64,000 nucleotides of DNA from Moheibacter lacus. Its GTDB lineage: Bacteria; Bacteroidota; Bacteroidia; Flavobacteriales; Weeksellaceae. Below, in pieces: positions 6,606 through 14,304 of the stretch. Both the position numbers and the translations under genes were made by a program. The DNA is taken from NCBI RefSeq assembly GCF_014042165.1, contig NZ_JACDZE010000001.1:1386595-1450594 (forward strand), in the 5' to 3' direction. The notes beneath the pieces are model-generated. The model was not told the origin of the DNA. It saw only the letters and a program-made list of their open reading frames with translations, and searched no databases. The stretch's first letter is position 1. Each line of letters starts with the position of its first letter.

Positions 6606-7685
6606 TTAATTCGAATTTTCTTTGTTCATGATTTGATTTTGATGTGAAATGGATTCTTGATGGATGGCACGTACCAATTTGTCGATGAATTCTTCTGATA
6701 ATCCAAGTTTTTCTCCTTGTTGGACTGAATTGTCTTTAATTTGTTTCCATCTATCCGGTTGAAAAACCGCTACGTTATGCTCTTTTTTTAATTCACCGAT
6801 TTGGGATGCAATTTTCATGCGCTGCGCAATGGTTTCTAGAATTCCCTGATCGGTTTCATCGATTTCATTTCTAAGGTGATTGATTTTGGAATGGTAGAAG
6901 GCATCTTCGTCATCGCTTTTGCGCAATTCTATTTTTCGAAGAATTTCCAATAATCTATCTGGTGTGATTTGTTGTTTGGCATCGCTCCAAGCTTCGTCAG
7001 GTTGATGATGGGATTCGATCATCAAACCATCGTATTCAAAATTATAGGCCTGTTGAGAAACATCAAAAATCCCTTCTCTGTTTCCGCAAATATGAGATGG
7101 ATCACAAACCATAGGGATTTCCGGCATTTTATTCATAAAGTCGAGAGCGATTTGCCATTGTGGGTTGTTACGGTATTTTGTTTTTTTATAAGTTGAAAAC
7201 CCACGATGGATGGCGCCGAGGTTTTGGATATTTTGTTGTTGAAGCCGTTCGATGGCTCCCATCCAGAGTTCCAAATCGGGATTGACCGGATTTTTAACCA
7301 AAACTACTTTTTTGGTATCTCGTAAGGCTTCTGCAATTTCCTGAACGGTAAATGGATTTACCGTAGAACGCGCCCCGATCCATAGATAATCAACATCATA
7401 TTCCAGTGCCAATTTCACATGACTGGCATTGGCAACTTCAGTTGCGATTTTAAATCCGAATTCGTCTTTGACTTTTTTTAACCAATTTAGTCCGATGGCT
7501 CCTACGCCTTCAAAACAATTGGGTTTGGTGCGTGGTTTCCAGATCCCGGCGCGGAAAACTTGAACATAATCTTTGTTCAATTGTTCTGCGATTTCCATCA
7601 TCTGCTTTTCGCTTTCGGCACTACAAGGACCAGCGATGGCAAGTGGTTTGTCGAATTCTTTTATCCAGTTTAATTTCTGACTCAT
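6606..7685 (-). CDS. bifunctional DAHP synthase / chorismate mutase
   Basis: A 359-residue fusion with an N-terminal 3-deoxy-7-phosphoheptulonate synthase (AIAGPCSAES near residue 17, GVGAIGLNW, KNPVNPDLELWMG, CDPSHICGNRE) and a C-terminal AroQ-type chorismate mutase from about residue 268 (LRNEIDETD, ASQIGELKKEH). It therefore carries the first step of the shikimate pathway and the committed step to prephenate. A C-terminal mutase is the arrangement known in Bacteroidota; the Bacillus form has it N-terminal. Fused mutases in this family commonly act as the allosteric sensor for the synthase. It lies 28 bp downstream of pheA, and a possible promoter element in that gap might let it escape the pheA attenuator. 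Confidence 0.95.
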   Translation of the reverse strand: MSQKLNWIKEFDKPLAIAGPCSAESEKQMMEIAEQLNKDYVQVFRAGIWKPRTKPNCFEGVGAIGLNWLKKVKDEFGFKIATEVANASHVKLALEYDVDYLWIGARSTVNPFTVQEIAEALRDTKKVVLVKNPVNPDLELWMGAIERLQQQNIQNLGAIHRGFSTYKKTKYRNNPQWQIALDFMNKMPEIPMVCDPSHICGNREGIFDVSQQAYNFEYDGLMIESHHQPDEAWSDAKQQITPDRLLEILRKIELRKSDDEDAFYHSKINHLRNEIDETDQGILETIAQRMKIASQIGELKKEHNVAVFQPDRWKQIKDNSVQQGEKLGLSEEFIDKLVRAIHQESISHQNQIMNKENSN

Positions 7686-7713: not shown

Positions 7714-8580
7714 TTAATTAATGGTTTCAAGGCTGGTGGGGTAGGCTTTAACATCCACGATTGGGTCGACAGCATTTTGATAGCATCCTAAAATTTCAAG
7801 GGATGTGGTTTTGGGTCGAATTCTTTCAAGTAATAATTCCAATTTTCGATCAAAATCCAATTCTAAATCGACATGAAAAGCGTATTGCCAAGGTTCGTCC
7901 ACGATAGGTACGGATTGAATTTTTTTCATGTTGATGTCCAAATTGGAAATTTCATTTAAAACATTGACCAAAGCTCCTTTTTCATGAGAAGTGGAAAATT
8001 TGAGTGAGACTTTTGAAAAGGAATCGGGTGCTGAAGCATTTTTTTTCAACACAAAGAATCGGGTGGAATTCTTGTAAATATTTTGGATATCGGGTTGTAG
8101 GATTTTTAATCCATATATTTCAGCTGAAAGTTTGGAGGCGATTGCGCCGATGTTTTTTAAATTTTTATCAGCAATCAATTTAGCAGTAGAAGCGGTGTCA
8201 GAGGATTCAAATATTTTGAAATGGCTGTTTTTCTCTAAAAATTTGTCACACTGTAAAAGCGCCATGGGATGCGAATGAACTTCTGTAATGCTTTCCCAAT
8301 CAGCTTCTGGATGCACCATGAATTGATGGTGAATGGGCAAATATACTTCACCTACGATTTTCAAATTGTATCGGGTGATCAAGCGGTAATTGGGCAATAG
8401 CGTTCCAGCGATGGAGTTTTCTATGGCCATAATCCCGAATTCTGACTCTTCTGTATGAATCGATTTGGCTACTTTTGAGAAGCTGTCCAATTTGTTTAAG
8501 TCCAAGTTTTGATTGGTGAAAAATTCAATTGCAGCTTGATGGTGGTAAGATCCTAAAGTTCCTTGAATGGCTATTTTCAT
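7714..8580 (-). CDS. pheA: prephenate dehydratase
   Basis: PheA converts prephenate to phenylpyruvate, the committed step to phenylalanine. The start at 8580 gives 288 residues beginning MKIAIQGTLGSYHHQAA; a longer frame to 8688 would read through the attenuator terminator and is rejected. Catalytic-domain motifs are ENSIAGTL at 54-61, SHPMALLQC at 103-111, SSDTASTA at 126-133 and TRF at 173-175. A C-terminal ACT domain (about 190-270) begins with HEKGALVNVL; the usual ESRP Phe-binding motif reads IQSVP, so allosteric behaviour may differ. It is the first gene of the aromatic run and sits directly behind a leader-peptide attenuator. Confidence 0.96.
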   Translation of the reverse strand: MKIAIQGTLGSYHHQAAIEFFTNQNLDLNKLDSFSKVAKSIHTEESEFGIMAIENSIAGTLLPNYRLITRYNLKIVGEVYLPIHHQFMVHPEADWESITEVHSHPMALLQCDKFLEKNSHFKIFESSDTASTAKLIADKNLKNIGAIASKLSAEIYGLKILQPDIQNIYKNSTRFFVLKKNASAPDSFSKVSLKFSTSHEKGALVNVLNEISNLDINMKKIQSVPIVDEPWQYAFHVDLELDFDRKLELLLERIRPKTTSLEILGCYQNAVDPIVDVKAYPTSLETIN

Positions 8581-8593
8581 GCGTTTTAAGTAT

Positions 8594-8622
8594 AAAAAAA
8601 GTCCCGCCTTTTGAGCGGGACT
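8594..8622 (-). terminator. intrinsic terminator of the pheA attenuator
   Basis: On the minus strand an 8-bp perfect stem AGTCCCGC / GCGGGACT (8615-8622 with 8600-8607) closes a 7-nt loop and is followed at once by seven T. It lies between the aromatic-rich leader peptide and the pheA ATG, 14 bp before that start codon, so it can only act by stopping transcription ahead of the structural genes. Confidence 0.9.
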
Positions 8623-8671
8623 GTGATTTCGTTTATGGTTTTGATTTATTTCATCACATAGATTACCCGCT
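8614..8671 (-). promoter_or_regulatory. antiterminator of the pheA attenuator
   Basis: On the minus strand, AGCGGG (8666-8671) and TGTGAT (8653-8658), inside and at the end of the leader peptide frame, are exactly complementary to CCCGCT (8614-8619) and ATCACA (8622-8627), which overlap and flank the 5' arm of the terminator. The two 6-bp helices nest with a 7/2-nt internal loop. Pairing here and pairing in the terminator exclude each other. A ribosome stalled on the Phe/Tyr codons would leave the first arm free; a ribosome at the stop codon would cover it. Confidence 0.8.
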
Positions 8672-8726
8672 TCTGAACGCTTGTCCAAAAGAAGTAATAA
8701 AAAAATGTGTTAAATAAATTGTTCAT
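8646..8726 (-). CDS. aromatic-rich leader peptide of the pheA operon
   Basis: This short frame of 26 codons runs from ATG at 8726 to TAA at 8646. Residues 8-14 are FFYYFFW, seven aromatic residues in a row; the peptide holds five Phe, three Tyr and one Trp in total. Codons 19-21 carry the first antiterminator arm. A stall at codons 9-12 leaves six or more codons between the A site and that arm, beyond the usual ribosome footprint. The layout matches the classic pheL-type attenuator of enterobacteria, though the peptide sequence is unrelated as far as I can see. Product function is regulatory in cis only. Confidence 0.85.
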   Translation of the reverse strand: MNNLFNTFFYYFFWTSVQKRVIYVMK

Positions 8727-8744
8727 TTCCTGATGATTGTTAGG

Positions 8745-8752
8745 CAAATGTA
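8745..8752 (-). promoter_or_regulatory. promoter -7 element for the pheA leader
   Basis: TACATTTG on the minus strand fits the TAnnTTTG consensus and lies 18 bp before the leader peptide ATG, giving a 5' leader of roughly 10-15 nt before the peptide. No clear TTG is seen near -33. Confidence 0.6.
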
Positions 8753-8800
8753 ATTAATTCTTGAAAAAAACGAAATTTTTTAAAAGAAAATTTGAAATAT

Positions 8801-8827
8801 AAAAAAAGCCGATTTAAAAATCGACTT
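8801..8827 (-). terminator. intrinsic terminator after the PorT-like gene
   Basis: On the minus strand AAGTCGATT / AATCGGCTT forms a 9-bp stem with one G-U pair and a 4-nt loop, followed by seven T. It lies 25 bp after the PorT-like stop codon and separates that transcript from the pheA leader promoter. Confidence 0.8.
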
Positions 8828-8851: not shown

Positions 8852-9568
8852 TTATTCGAATTTTAAGGAGAAGAAAACGCCTCTTGTAGAAAGCGATTTA
8901 AGCGATCCTGCCCATTGTGGAGGTGTGTCGGGATTGTCCTGAACCAATTCGTTGTTGAATAGGAAAATTCCTTTTAAAGCCGGCGTTAATTTGAACTTTT
9001 TGAAATAGATTTCAACACCTAACTCTGCTTGCCAGTTGACGTTATGGGTTTTCATCCGGAACATGGCATCTTGGTTGTCTTCCTCTTTCTTTTCATTGGA
9101 TTGAAGATTGACCATGTATCCGACACCAGCTTGTAGATAAGGTCTTGTGTTGACCCAACGATCACCATGGACTTTCAAAAGCAAAGGAATGTCGATGTAG
9201 GTAGATTTTACTTCACGAACGCTATCGACTTCAGAGGAAATGTTACCGAAATATAAATTTCTTTCAGCAAAATGAACACCTGGTTCTAATTTTAGATCCA
9301 AATATTCATGCAATTTCATTTTTCCCATTAAACCGACAGAAAATCCCATTTTATTTTCTTGTCGCAAATAAATCATCCCTTGTTGGTTCAGACCATTGTC
9401 GCCCGGCGTTACTTTGAAGGACATCAAATTGGTTCCCAAAAAGTATCCCCAGCTAAAAGGTTTTTCATCAAAATCCTCGCGATGCCAAGTTTTATCGTTG
9501 TTGGGACGAAATTGGCCAAATGAATTGACCATCAATGAAAAAAGGAGTATTGCCAAAAAATTTCTCAT
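8852..9568 (-). CDS. porT: PorT-like outer membrane beta-barrel protein
   Basis: A 238-residue exported protein: signal peptide MRNFLAILLFSLMV with likely cleavage near SFGQ, then repeated amphipathic strands ending in a terminal Phe (FFSLKF then E), as expected of an outer-membrane barrel. PorT/SprT-type proteins are accessory components of the type IX secretion and gliding machinery, and their position directly downstream of ubiE is a recurrent arrangement in flavobacteria. I chose ATG 9568 because it opens the signal peptide; a longer frame to 9631 adds a charged, non-signal extension. The family call rests on strand pattern and synteny more than on a catalytic motif, so another small barrel is possible. 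Confidence 0.7.
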   Translation of the reverse strand: MRNFLAILLFSLMVNSFGQFRPNNDKTWHREDFDEKPFSWGYFLGTNLMSFKVTPGDNGLNQQGMIYLRQENKMGFSVGLMGKMKLHEYLDLKLEPGVHFAERNLYFGNISSEVDSVREVKSTYIDIPLLLKVHGDRWVNTRPYLQAGVGYMVNLQSNEKKEEDNQDAMFRMKTHNVNWQAELGVEIYFKKFKLTPALKGIFLFNNELVQDNPDTPPQWAGSLKSLSTRGVFFSLKFE

Positions 9569-9675
9569 CTGTTCTGTTCTAGTTTTTTCATTTAGGTCAG
9601 TTTGATTTGCGGTTGAAAATGGATTTTTCAAAACTGCTGAATTCTTACCCTTTCCTTAACGAAAATTTCTGTGTT

Positions 9676-11652: not shown

Positions 11653-11660
11653 TACATTTG
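11653..11660 (+). promoter_or_regulatory. promoter -7 element for rpsO
   Basis: TACATTTG matches TAnnTTTG and lies 38 bp upstream of the rpsO ATG. A 6-bp inverted repeat CAAAGT / ACTTTG (11624-11641) sits just upstream, across the -20 to -35 region, and could bind a regulator; that is speculative. Confidence 0.55.
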
Positions 11661-11698
11661 CAGCCGCATACATAATAATCATTTAAAACAATATTGGA

Positions 11699-11968
11699 AT
11701 GTATTTGACAACAGAAAAAAAACAAGAAATTTTTGCAAAACACGGTAAATCTACAACAGATACCGGTTCTGCCGAAGGCCAAGTTGCCTTATTTACCTTC
11801 AGAATCAACCATTTGACGGAGCATTTGAAAAGAAATCGTAAAGATTTTGCTACGGAAAAAGCATTGGTTGCGCTCGTAGGTAAAAGAAAAAGTTTATTGG
11901 ATTATTTGAAAAACAAAGACATCGAAAGATATCGTGCGATCATCGCCGAGCTTGGTCTTCGTAAATAA
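11699..11968 (+). CDS. rpsO: 30S ribosomal protein S15
   Basis: S15 binds 16S rRNA in the platform of the small subunit. The 89-residue length is exact for the family, and the conserved core TGSAEGQVALFTFRINHLTEH and LVGKRKSLLDYL is present in outline (residues about 22-80). It is followed by pnp, the common bacterial order, but a strong terminator lies between the two. Confidence 0.97.
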   Translation: MYLTTEKKQEIFAKHGKSTTDTGSAEGQVALFTFRINHLTEHLKRNRKDFATEKALVALVGKRKSLLDYLKNKDIERYRAIIAELGLRK

Positions 11969-12141: not shown

Positions 12142-14304
12142 ATGATTCCACAAGCAATCACAGAAACGATTACACTGGCAGATGGCCGGGAAATCACGAT
12201 TGAAACGGGAAAGTTAGCCAAACAAGCTGACGGTTCCGTTGTTGTAAAAATGGGCGGTACGATGCTTCTTGCCACCGTAGTTGCCAACAAAGAAGCCAAC
12301 CCTGGTGTTGACTTTTTACCTTTGACAGTAGATTATAGAGAGAAATTTTATGCAGGAGGAAAGATTCCGGGGAATTTTTTCCGTAGAGAAGCAAGACCTT
12401 CTGACCAAGAAATTTTGACCATGCGTTTGGTAGACCGCGTTTTGAGACCTTTGTTTCCGGAGGATTTTCATGCGGAAGTTCAAGTGATGATTTCACTTAT
12501 TTCTTATGACGGACAGTCTATTCCGGACGATTTAGCCGGACTTGCTGCTTCTGCGGCAATCGCCATTACTGACATTCCGTTTAACGGACCGATGTCTGAA
12601 GTACGTGTCGTGCGTATCAATGGAGAATTGTCCATCAATCCCAACTACAAACAATTGGCAGAAGTCGAATTGGATATCGTGGTCGGTGCTACGAAATCTT
12701 CTATCGTGATGGTAGAAGGTGAAATGAAAGAGATCACGGAAGAGGAAATGCTCGAAGCGATCAGTTTTGCACACGAAGAAATCAAAAAACAAATAGAAGC
12801 GCAAGAAAGATTGGCCGAGAAAGTCGGGAAATCTGCGCCGAAAAGAGAATATAGCCATGAAGATCACGATGAAATAATCCGTGAAAAAGTATGGGCAGAA
12901 TGTTACCAAAAAGTATATGACGTTGCCAAATCTCCTTCTGCAAAAGAAGAAAGAGGAGAGAAATTCAAAGCCGTTTTGGATGAATTTTTAGCACAATATG
13001 AAGGTGATGAAGAAGAATTGGCCCGCGTTACGCCATTTGTAAAAGTATATTACCACGATGTGGAAAAAGAAGCGATGCGTCAGATGATTTTGAACGAACA
13101 AGTTCGTCTAGATGGTCGTAACCCGAAAGAAATCAGACCGATTTGGTGTGAAGTGGACTATCTGCCAGGAACACATGGTTCTGCAGTATTTACACGAGGA
13201 GAAACCCAGTCATTGACTGCTTTGACGCTTGGTTCTTCCAAAGATGCCAATATGGTAGACAGCGTGATTTCACAATACGATGAAAAATTCTTCTTACATT
13301 ATAATTTCCCACCATTTTCAACCGGTGAAGCGCGTCCATTAAGAGGAACTTCTCGTCGTGAGGTTGGTCATGGAAATTTGGCACAAAGAGCATTGACTTG
13401 GACCTTGCCAGAGGAATATCCTTATACAGTCCGTATCGTTTCAGATATTTTGGAATCCAACGGATCCTCTTCCATGGCGACGGTTTGTGCCGGAACTTTG
13501 GCGTTGATGGACGGTGGTGTGCCAATTAAAAAACCGGTTTCCGGAATCGCAATGGGATTGATAACCGATCAGAAATCAGGGAAATTTACCGTTCTTTCAG
13601 ACATCTTAGGAGACGAAGATCATTTGGGAGATATGGACTTTAAAGTTACCGGAACCAAAGACGGAATCACAGCTTGTCAGATGGACATCAAAATTCAAGG
13701 TTTGACCATGGACATCATGAAACAAGCGTTGGAACAAGCACGTGAAGGTCGTATTCATATTTTAGGCGAAATGATGAAAACAATCACCGAATCTCGTGAG
13801 CAATTGAAACCAAATGCACCGAAATTGATCGTAGTTGAAATCCCTAAAGAATTCATCGGTGCGGTAATCGGACCAGGTGGAAAAGTAATTCAAGAGTTAC
13901 AAAAAGAAACCGAAACGGTTATTGCAATCGAAGAAACCGAAACTTCAGGACGCGTAGAAATTGCAGGTGTAGATCAAGCGAAAATCGATGCAGCCATCGC
14001 TCGCATCAAACAAATTGCATTTGTACCGGAAGTAGGTGAGACCTACAATGCCGTTGTAAAATCCATCAAACCATTTGGAGCTTTTGTTGAGATTTCAAAA
14101 GGCGTAGAAGGATTGGTTCATATTTCCGAAATCGAGCACAGACGTTTGAATACGGTTGAAGAAGTATTGAACTTGAACGATAAAGTGAAAGTGAAATTCT
14201 TAGGTTATGATGATAAAAAGAAAATGAAACTTTCCATCAAAGCTTTGTTACCAAAGCCGGAAAAAGCCGAAAAGCCGGCTCAAAACAATAATTCTGCTGA
14301 ATAA
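12142..14304 (+). CDS. pnp: polynucleotide phosphorylase
   Basis: PNPase degrades RNA 3' to 5' by phosphorolysis in the cytoplasm. The 720 residues give the complete domain set: first RNase PH domain (about 10-145), linking alpha domain, second RNase PH domain (about 320-540), KH domain containing [12 protein letters not shown] near residue 577, and an S1 domain with [20 protein letters not shown] near 645. The C-terminal tail is short and Lys/Pro-rich. It lies behind rpsO. Confidence 0.98.

Follow-up and report, generated by a model that had tools for sequence, protein, structure and literature searches.

What controls the pheA gene of Moheibacter lacus, and why is it preceded by a short reading frame packed with aromatic codons? 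The locus lies in a stretch of 64,000 nt (contig NZ_JACDZE010000001.1, positions 1,386,595 to 1,450,594; hereafter the window, numbered from its first letter). The gene itself (nt 7714–8580, minus strand) encodes prephenate dehydratase (PF00800, E = 5.9e-55) and is followed on the same strand by a DAHP synthase-chorismate mutase fusion as second gene of the operon (nt 6606–7685; PF00793, PF01817), and then by rsgA. The initial annotation had listed both the fusion and an aroA downstream of pheA; the two domain matches bear out the former, and a separate aroA was not observed. The immediate upstream neighbour of the pheA leader is a PorT/SprT-like type IX secretion gene (nt 8852–9631, minus strand), and apparently the same gene precedes the leader in two other species of the genus, L013 and L014. 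The possibility that the terminator in the leader belongs to this gene was rejected, as the gene has a hairpin and T-run of its own (nt ~8800–8826).

Read directly in the sequence, the region upstream of pheA carries, in order on the minus strand, a promoter element, a leader ORF, an antiterminator and an intrinsic terminator, and re-reading placed all four where the initial annotation had put them. The promoter element is a Bacteroidetes-type −7 motif, TACATTTG (nt 8745–8752), and the leader ATG (nt 8726–8724) lies 18 nt downstream of it. The ORF (nt 8646–8726, ending with TAA at 8648–8646) specifies MNNLFNTFFYYFFWTSVQKRVIYVMK, 26 codons plus stop, and has counterparts in relatives. Its putative regulatory codons are numbers 8–14 (nt 8685–8705), Phe Phe Tyr Tyr Phe Phe Trp (FFYYFFW). 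Codons 19–25 hold the 5′ arm of the antiterminator (nt 8653–8671), made up of AGCGGG (8666–8671) and TGTGAT (8653–8658), which are complementary to CCCGCT (8614–8619) and ATCACA (8622–8627), respectively, in the 3′ arm (nt 8614–8627). The 3′ arm is shared with the terminator (nt 8594–8622), AGTCCCGCT-CAAAA-GGCGGGACT followed by seven T residues. The position and T-run of the terminator were correctly described before, while its stem, given as 8 bp, has 9 bp (eight Watson-Crick pairs and a terminal U-G) around the loop CAAAA; it ends at nt 8594, 13 nt upstream of the pheA ATG (8580). The minimum-free-energy fold of the untranslated leader adds one element to the original list of parts, a strong protector (1:2) hairpin in which codons 10–15 (nt 8698–8683), that is, regulatory codons serving as arm 1, pair with arm 2 (nt 8678–8662) and bury AGCGGG; arm 1 is near-identical in L013 and L014. 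On these predicted structures, the leader is a full 1:2, 2:3 and 3:4 set of alternative hairpins, the anatomy of a classical ribosome-mediated attenuator.

The specificity of this arrangement was assessed with a caller that looks for an ORF of 10–45 codons with at least 6 aromatic residues in 10 and an intrinsic terminator starting no more than 90 nt from its stop. When the whole window was cut into 508 tiles of 500 nt, counting both strands, only two were called, both covering the pheA leader, and none of 405 shuffled upstream regions was called. The same caller recovered pheL of Escherichia coli in a run with a lowered threshold, where its 7 aromatic residues in 10 were above the standard one. 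The leader fold has a z-score of −4.25 against dinucleotide shuffles and, since window tiles and shuffled regions were otherwise uncalled, a chance origin of the leader was rejected. A candidate second copy in the genome (an 80% match at G000:C6:64946, L010) turned out to lie behind an unrelated gene and to resemble the leader only in its terminator hairpin.

A search for pheA homologues at the levels of genus, family, order and class then supplied 133 upstream regions. An aromatic leader with a terminator was called in 81 of these 133 genomes (55 genera), and in 0 of 133 when the opposite strand of the same regions was used. The count of 81 is a lower bound because two further regions, L058 and L030, carry weaker attenuator-like features below the threshold of the caller; that of L058 consists of MNRLENTFNSFYFIYDR and a hairpin with a T-run. 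All three genomes of the genus that have pheA were called, the other two leaders being MNHLFNTSFYYFFWTQVQKRVIYVVK and MTNLFNTSFYYFFWARVQKRVIYVG, as were 13 of 14 in the Empedobacter/Faecalibacter/Chishuiella group (for example, MTTFNYFNAFFFYFFGYYPEEQGLRCHN); in the fourteenth (L016) the leader is present and its hairpin fails the terminator rule. The leader frame and its aromatic run are kept in L013, L014, the 14 genomes of the Empedobacter/Faecalibacter group and L029. Every sampled genome of the Flavobacteriaceae (35/35, 25 genera; family f3, assigned to that name from its size and gene content) was called, and so were 26 of the 40 genomes that represent the remaining families of the class, a sample taken down the match list and not at random. 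No leader was found before the divergent pheA genes of the family members g6, g8, g10, g12 and g23 (E ~1e-26, in another gene context) or before the closer homologues of two genera, g3 and g25. Of the 81 called leaders, 63 have a match to TAnnTT[TA]G in the 60 nt that precede the leader start, mostly 24–35 nt before the start codon, compared with 5 of 232 control windows, which backs the assignment of the −7 element. The aromatic frame is conserved in relatives, along with stems that covary. The suggestion of a lineage-specific family in the initial annotation is not supported, as the element before pheA is widespread, occurring throughout the Flavobacteriaceae and in many other families of the Bacteroidia.

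Covariation was examined in both stems. With one sequence per genus (55), antiterminator arms paired with their own partners at a mean score of 18.1, against 14.1 ± 0.36 for permuted partners (z ~11), and the score of the true pairs was reached in 0 of 20000 permutations. Compensated changes can be seen in individual cases, such as GAGGCTTTGTA/TATAAAGCCTC versus GAGACTTTGTA/TATAAAGTCTC in one genus and GGGATTGT/ACAATCCC versus AGGATTGT/ACAATCCT in another, including a compensatory A-U/G-C change inside one genus. In an alignment of 25 Flavobacteriaceae genera, five of the seven antiterminator pairs show two-sided changes, with a covariation score of 0.284 versus 0.219 ± 0.018 for shuffled alignments (0/500) and 70% of cells paired. 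This column test is weaker than the permutation test because an alignment slid by one column scores nearly equally, probably owing to some rows that are out of register by one. For the terminator, two-sided changes were found in 6 of 11 pairs across the 25 genera, and 92% of cells are paired, well above every slid version.

The alternative pairings were modelled by treating the ribosome as a masked stretch and folding the RNA up to the end of arm 3, a procedure that ignores cotranscriptional kinetics. Across the 55 genera, the antiterminator paired with a mean probability of 0.92 when the ribosome occupied the aromatic codons. The mean was 0.16 for a ribosome at the stop codon and 0.65 when none was present. 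Arm 2 starts a median of 5.3 codons past the last aromatic codon, just beyond the leading edge of a ribosome stalled there. In the M. lacus leader the nascent antiterminator reached 0.94 with the ribosome stalled at codon 9 or 14, compared with only 0.10 in its absence. Moving the ribosome to the stop codon gave 0.82, 0.31 or 0.00 when 12, 15 or 18 nt were masked behind the P site, so that a block at this position would need 15–18 nt of masking, or release of the ribosome. The initial annotation had stated that the arm is free during an aromatic stall and covered at the stop; the model agrees with the first half and makes the second dependent on the footprint. Most of the other pheA leaders of the Bacteroidia place the end of the antiterminator arm close to the stop codon and lack a strong predicted 1:2 hairpin. 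The modelling therefore suggests that in M. lacus the 1:2 hairpin may provide the block for which most relatives would rely on a ribosome at the stop. For L014, the automatic antiterminator call took the wrong arm (TTCTTTTGG) and its 2:3 probability is not meaningful; those of L012 and L013 are sound.

In the M. lacus leader, the terminator is favoured at equilibrium in every state modelled (probability ~0.94 even with a stalled ribosome), and switching must therefore be kinetic. Attenuators in general are held to switch kinetically. The same result would also suit a terminator that simply removes a constant fraction of transcripts and so reduces pheA transcription, with an ORF that is accidental or encodes an unrelated small hydrophobic protein. 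Such an explanation is very improbable, however, given that the aromatic ORF, the antiterminator complementarity and the position of the stop codon are jointly conserved across dozens of genera and that pairing between the true partners is under selection. Slightly further from likelihood is arrest by the nascent chain, in the manner of TnaC, whereby an aromatic-rich peptide would stall the ribosome upon binding free Phe or Tyr, and high amino acid levels would cause the stall. A short aromatic-rich peptide and an adjustable terminator would fit this scheme, but an arrest peptide needs specific residues, and here the peptide shows no conservation between genera beyond its aromatic run, the length of the run varies, and F and Y replace each other freely from genus to genus with the aromatic content retained. 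The sign would also be wrong, as a biosynthetic operon would be raised when its product is abundant. Least credible of all is a scheme in which the ORF is a passenger and control is exerted by an RNA-binding protein or by a riboswitch for a small molecule. It would match a structured 5′ leader with mutually exclusive folds, but the leader RNA has no match at gathering score among 4227 Rfam models and the alignments contain no conserved aptamer-like segment outside the ORF, antiterminator and terminator. The peptide, likewise, gave no match in a Pfam search. The sole Rfam match in the window is the S15-Flavobacteria ribosomal protein leader (RF03161, nt 11653–11701, plus strand, 60.8 bits), ahead of a long ORF at nt 12142.

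A cognate codon run, an intrinsic terminator, a mutually exclusive antiterminator and a suitable ribosome geometry were all found, and a classical ribosome-mediated transcription attenuator very probably controls pheA and the DAHP synthase-chorismate mutase gene that follows it. Conservation, covariation, geometry and folding all lend good support to this reading, which the initial annotation had already put forward. From these computed features we infer promoter use, leader translation and a response to Phe- and Tyr-tRNA, which would operate as follows. RNA polymerase would start at the TACATTTG promoter and a ribosome would begin the 26-codon leader. If charged tRNA-Phe and tRNA-Tyr are ample, the ribosome would pass FFYYFFW and reach the stop codon, where it would cover the antiterminator arm (codons 19–25), or its release would let the 1:2 hairpin hide that arm; with the antiterminator blocked, the 3:4 terminator would form just before pheA and transcription would end. 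If Phe or Tyr is short, the ribosome would stall at codons 8–14 with its leading edge short of codon 19 and arm 1 covered, leaving arm 2 to pair with arm 3 once this is made, so that no terminator would form and pheA would be transcribed. Without translation, the 1:2 hairpin would lead to termination.

As to the putative signal, the mean codon content of the 81 leaders is 5.5 for Phe, 3.7 for Tyr and 0.4 for Trp. The initial annotation proposed that aromatic supply in general is sensed; this is a weaker description than Phe plus Tyr, as Trp occurs in only 35 of the 81 leaders and a separate leader with WWW precedes trpE. Several observations count against an attenuator: the regulatory run of M. 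lacus mixes Phe and Tyr rather than using one amino acid, and a recognisable tyrA is absent, so that Tyr codons would report Phe-derived Tyr; the equilibrium preference for the terminator, the antiterminator still predicted with 12 nt masked at the stop codon and the blurred register of the antiterminator alignment weigh on the same side. The presence of both kinds of codon is explained by the operon of Faecalibacter (pheA, aminotransferase, tyrA, DAHP synthase/chorismate mutase). Searches of the M. lacus genome with PF20463 and the Faecalibacter TyrA did not find TyrA, and a role for it as second gene of the operon was accordingly rejected. Since TyrA was not found and an aromatic amino acid hydroxylase domain (PF00351) is present, Tyr may, and probably does, come from Phe in this organism, in which case both kinds of codon would still report the output of pheA. 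The second attenuator-like leader of the genome (L169, G000:C1 ~568–570 kb) encodes MKNLVSNNNWWWTSQLRK, with WWW, is preceded by TACATTTG and has a terminator, AAGCCTGTC-CTTCAC-GACGGGCTT with seven T residues, upstream of trpE; no clear antiterminator was found in it. With WWW before trpE and FFYYFFW before pheA, the repeated codon appears to follow the pathway. A his attenuator was also considered for this genome and rejected, as HisG was not found; His is probably imported.

The M. lacus leader resembles pheL-pheA of E. coli in having a short ORF with tandem cognate codons and an intrinsic terminator before pheA, and in the placement of an antiterminator arm (GGGAGGC/GCCTCCC in E. coli) just past these codons. 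It differs in its length (26 codons versus 15), in a run that mixes Phe, Tyr and one Trp where pheL is of the Phe type, in an antiterminator arm that lies inside the ORF, and in its Bacteroidetes-type promoter. The enzymes differ as well, PheA being a separate dehydratase here and chorismate mutase forming part of the DAHP synthase fusion. The two leaders showed no sequence similarity; they are too short and too different to decide on common descent, and an origin independent of enterobacterial pheL is likely. The trp leaders (trpL) likewise combine alternative hairpins with an ORF that carries cognate codons, and differ in the identity of the codons. Lopatovskaya et al. (2010), a paper cited in PMC4833913, reportedly described attenuation across many bacteria, possibly with cases from the Bacteroidetes.

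As a kind of regulation, then, the attenuator is known; what is added here is the anatomy of the pheA leader, its class-wide distribution and its two designs. A 2010 study stated that leader peptides had been shown only in Proteobacteria and Actinobacteria, and added Firmicutes (PMC2965389). The suggestion in the initial annotation that this leader may be undescribed is not supported, as a structured, transcribed 5′ element was listed for pheA of Flavobacterium psychrophilum in 2021, with conservation in other Flavobacteriaceae and no Rfam hit (PMC9723704). The same transcriptome study reports strong indications that operons for amino-acid biosynthesis are preceded by leader-peptide attenuators, and its main text gives the pheA element no anatomy, distribution beyond the family or explicit leader-peptide assignment (PMC9723704).

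Weighing about evenly for and against, we propose that the Phe/Tyr attenuator before pheA could be an old trait of the Bacteroidia, kept in most families despite near-complete sequence turnover, with leaders that lack an obvious Shine-Dalgarno sequence and with two designs, one using a protector hairpin (the genus of M. lacus) and the other relying chiefly on a ribosome at the stop codon for the block (most Flavobacteriaceae). Attenuation of pheA across the Bacteroidia would provide a test bed for the workings of attenuation in a phylum that departs from E. coli in its promoters and translation starts. It contributes dozens of short genes that lack annotation, together with a conserved regulatory RNA that is absent from Rfam, and offers a predicted Phe/Tyr-responsive switch in genetically tractable species of Flavobacterium.
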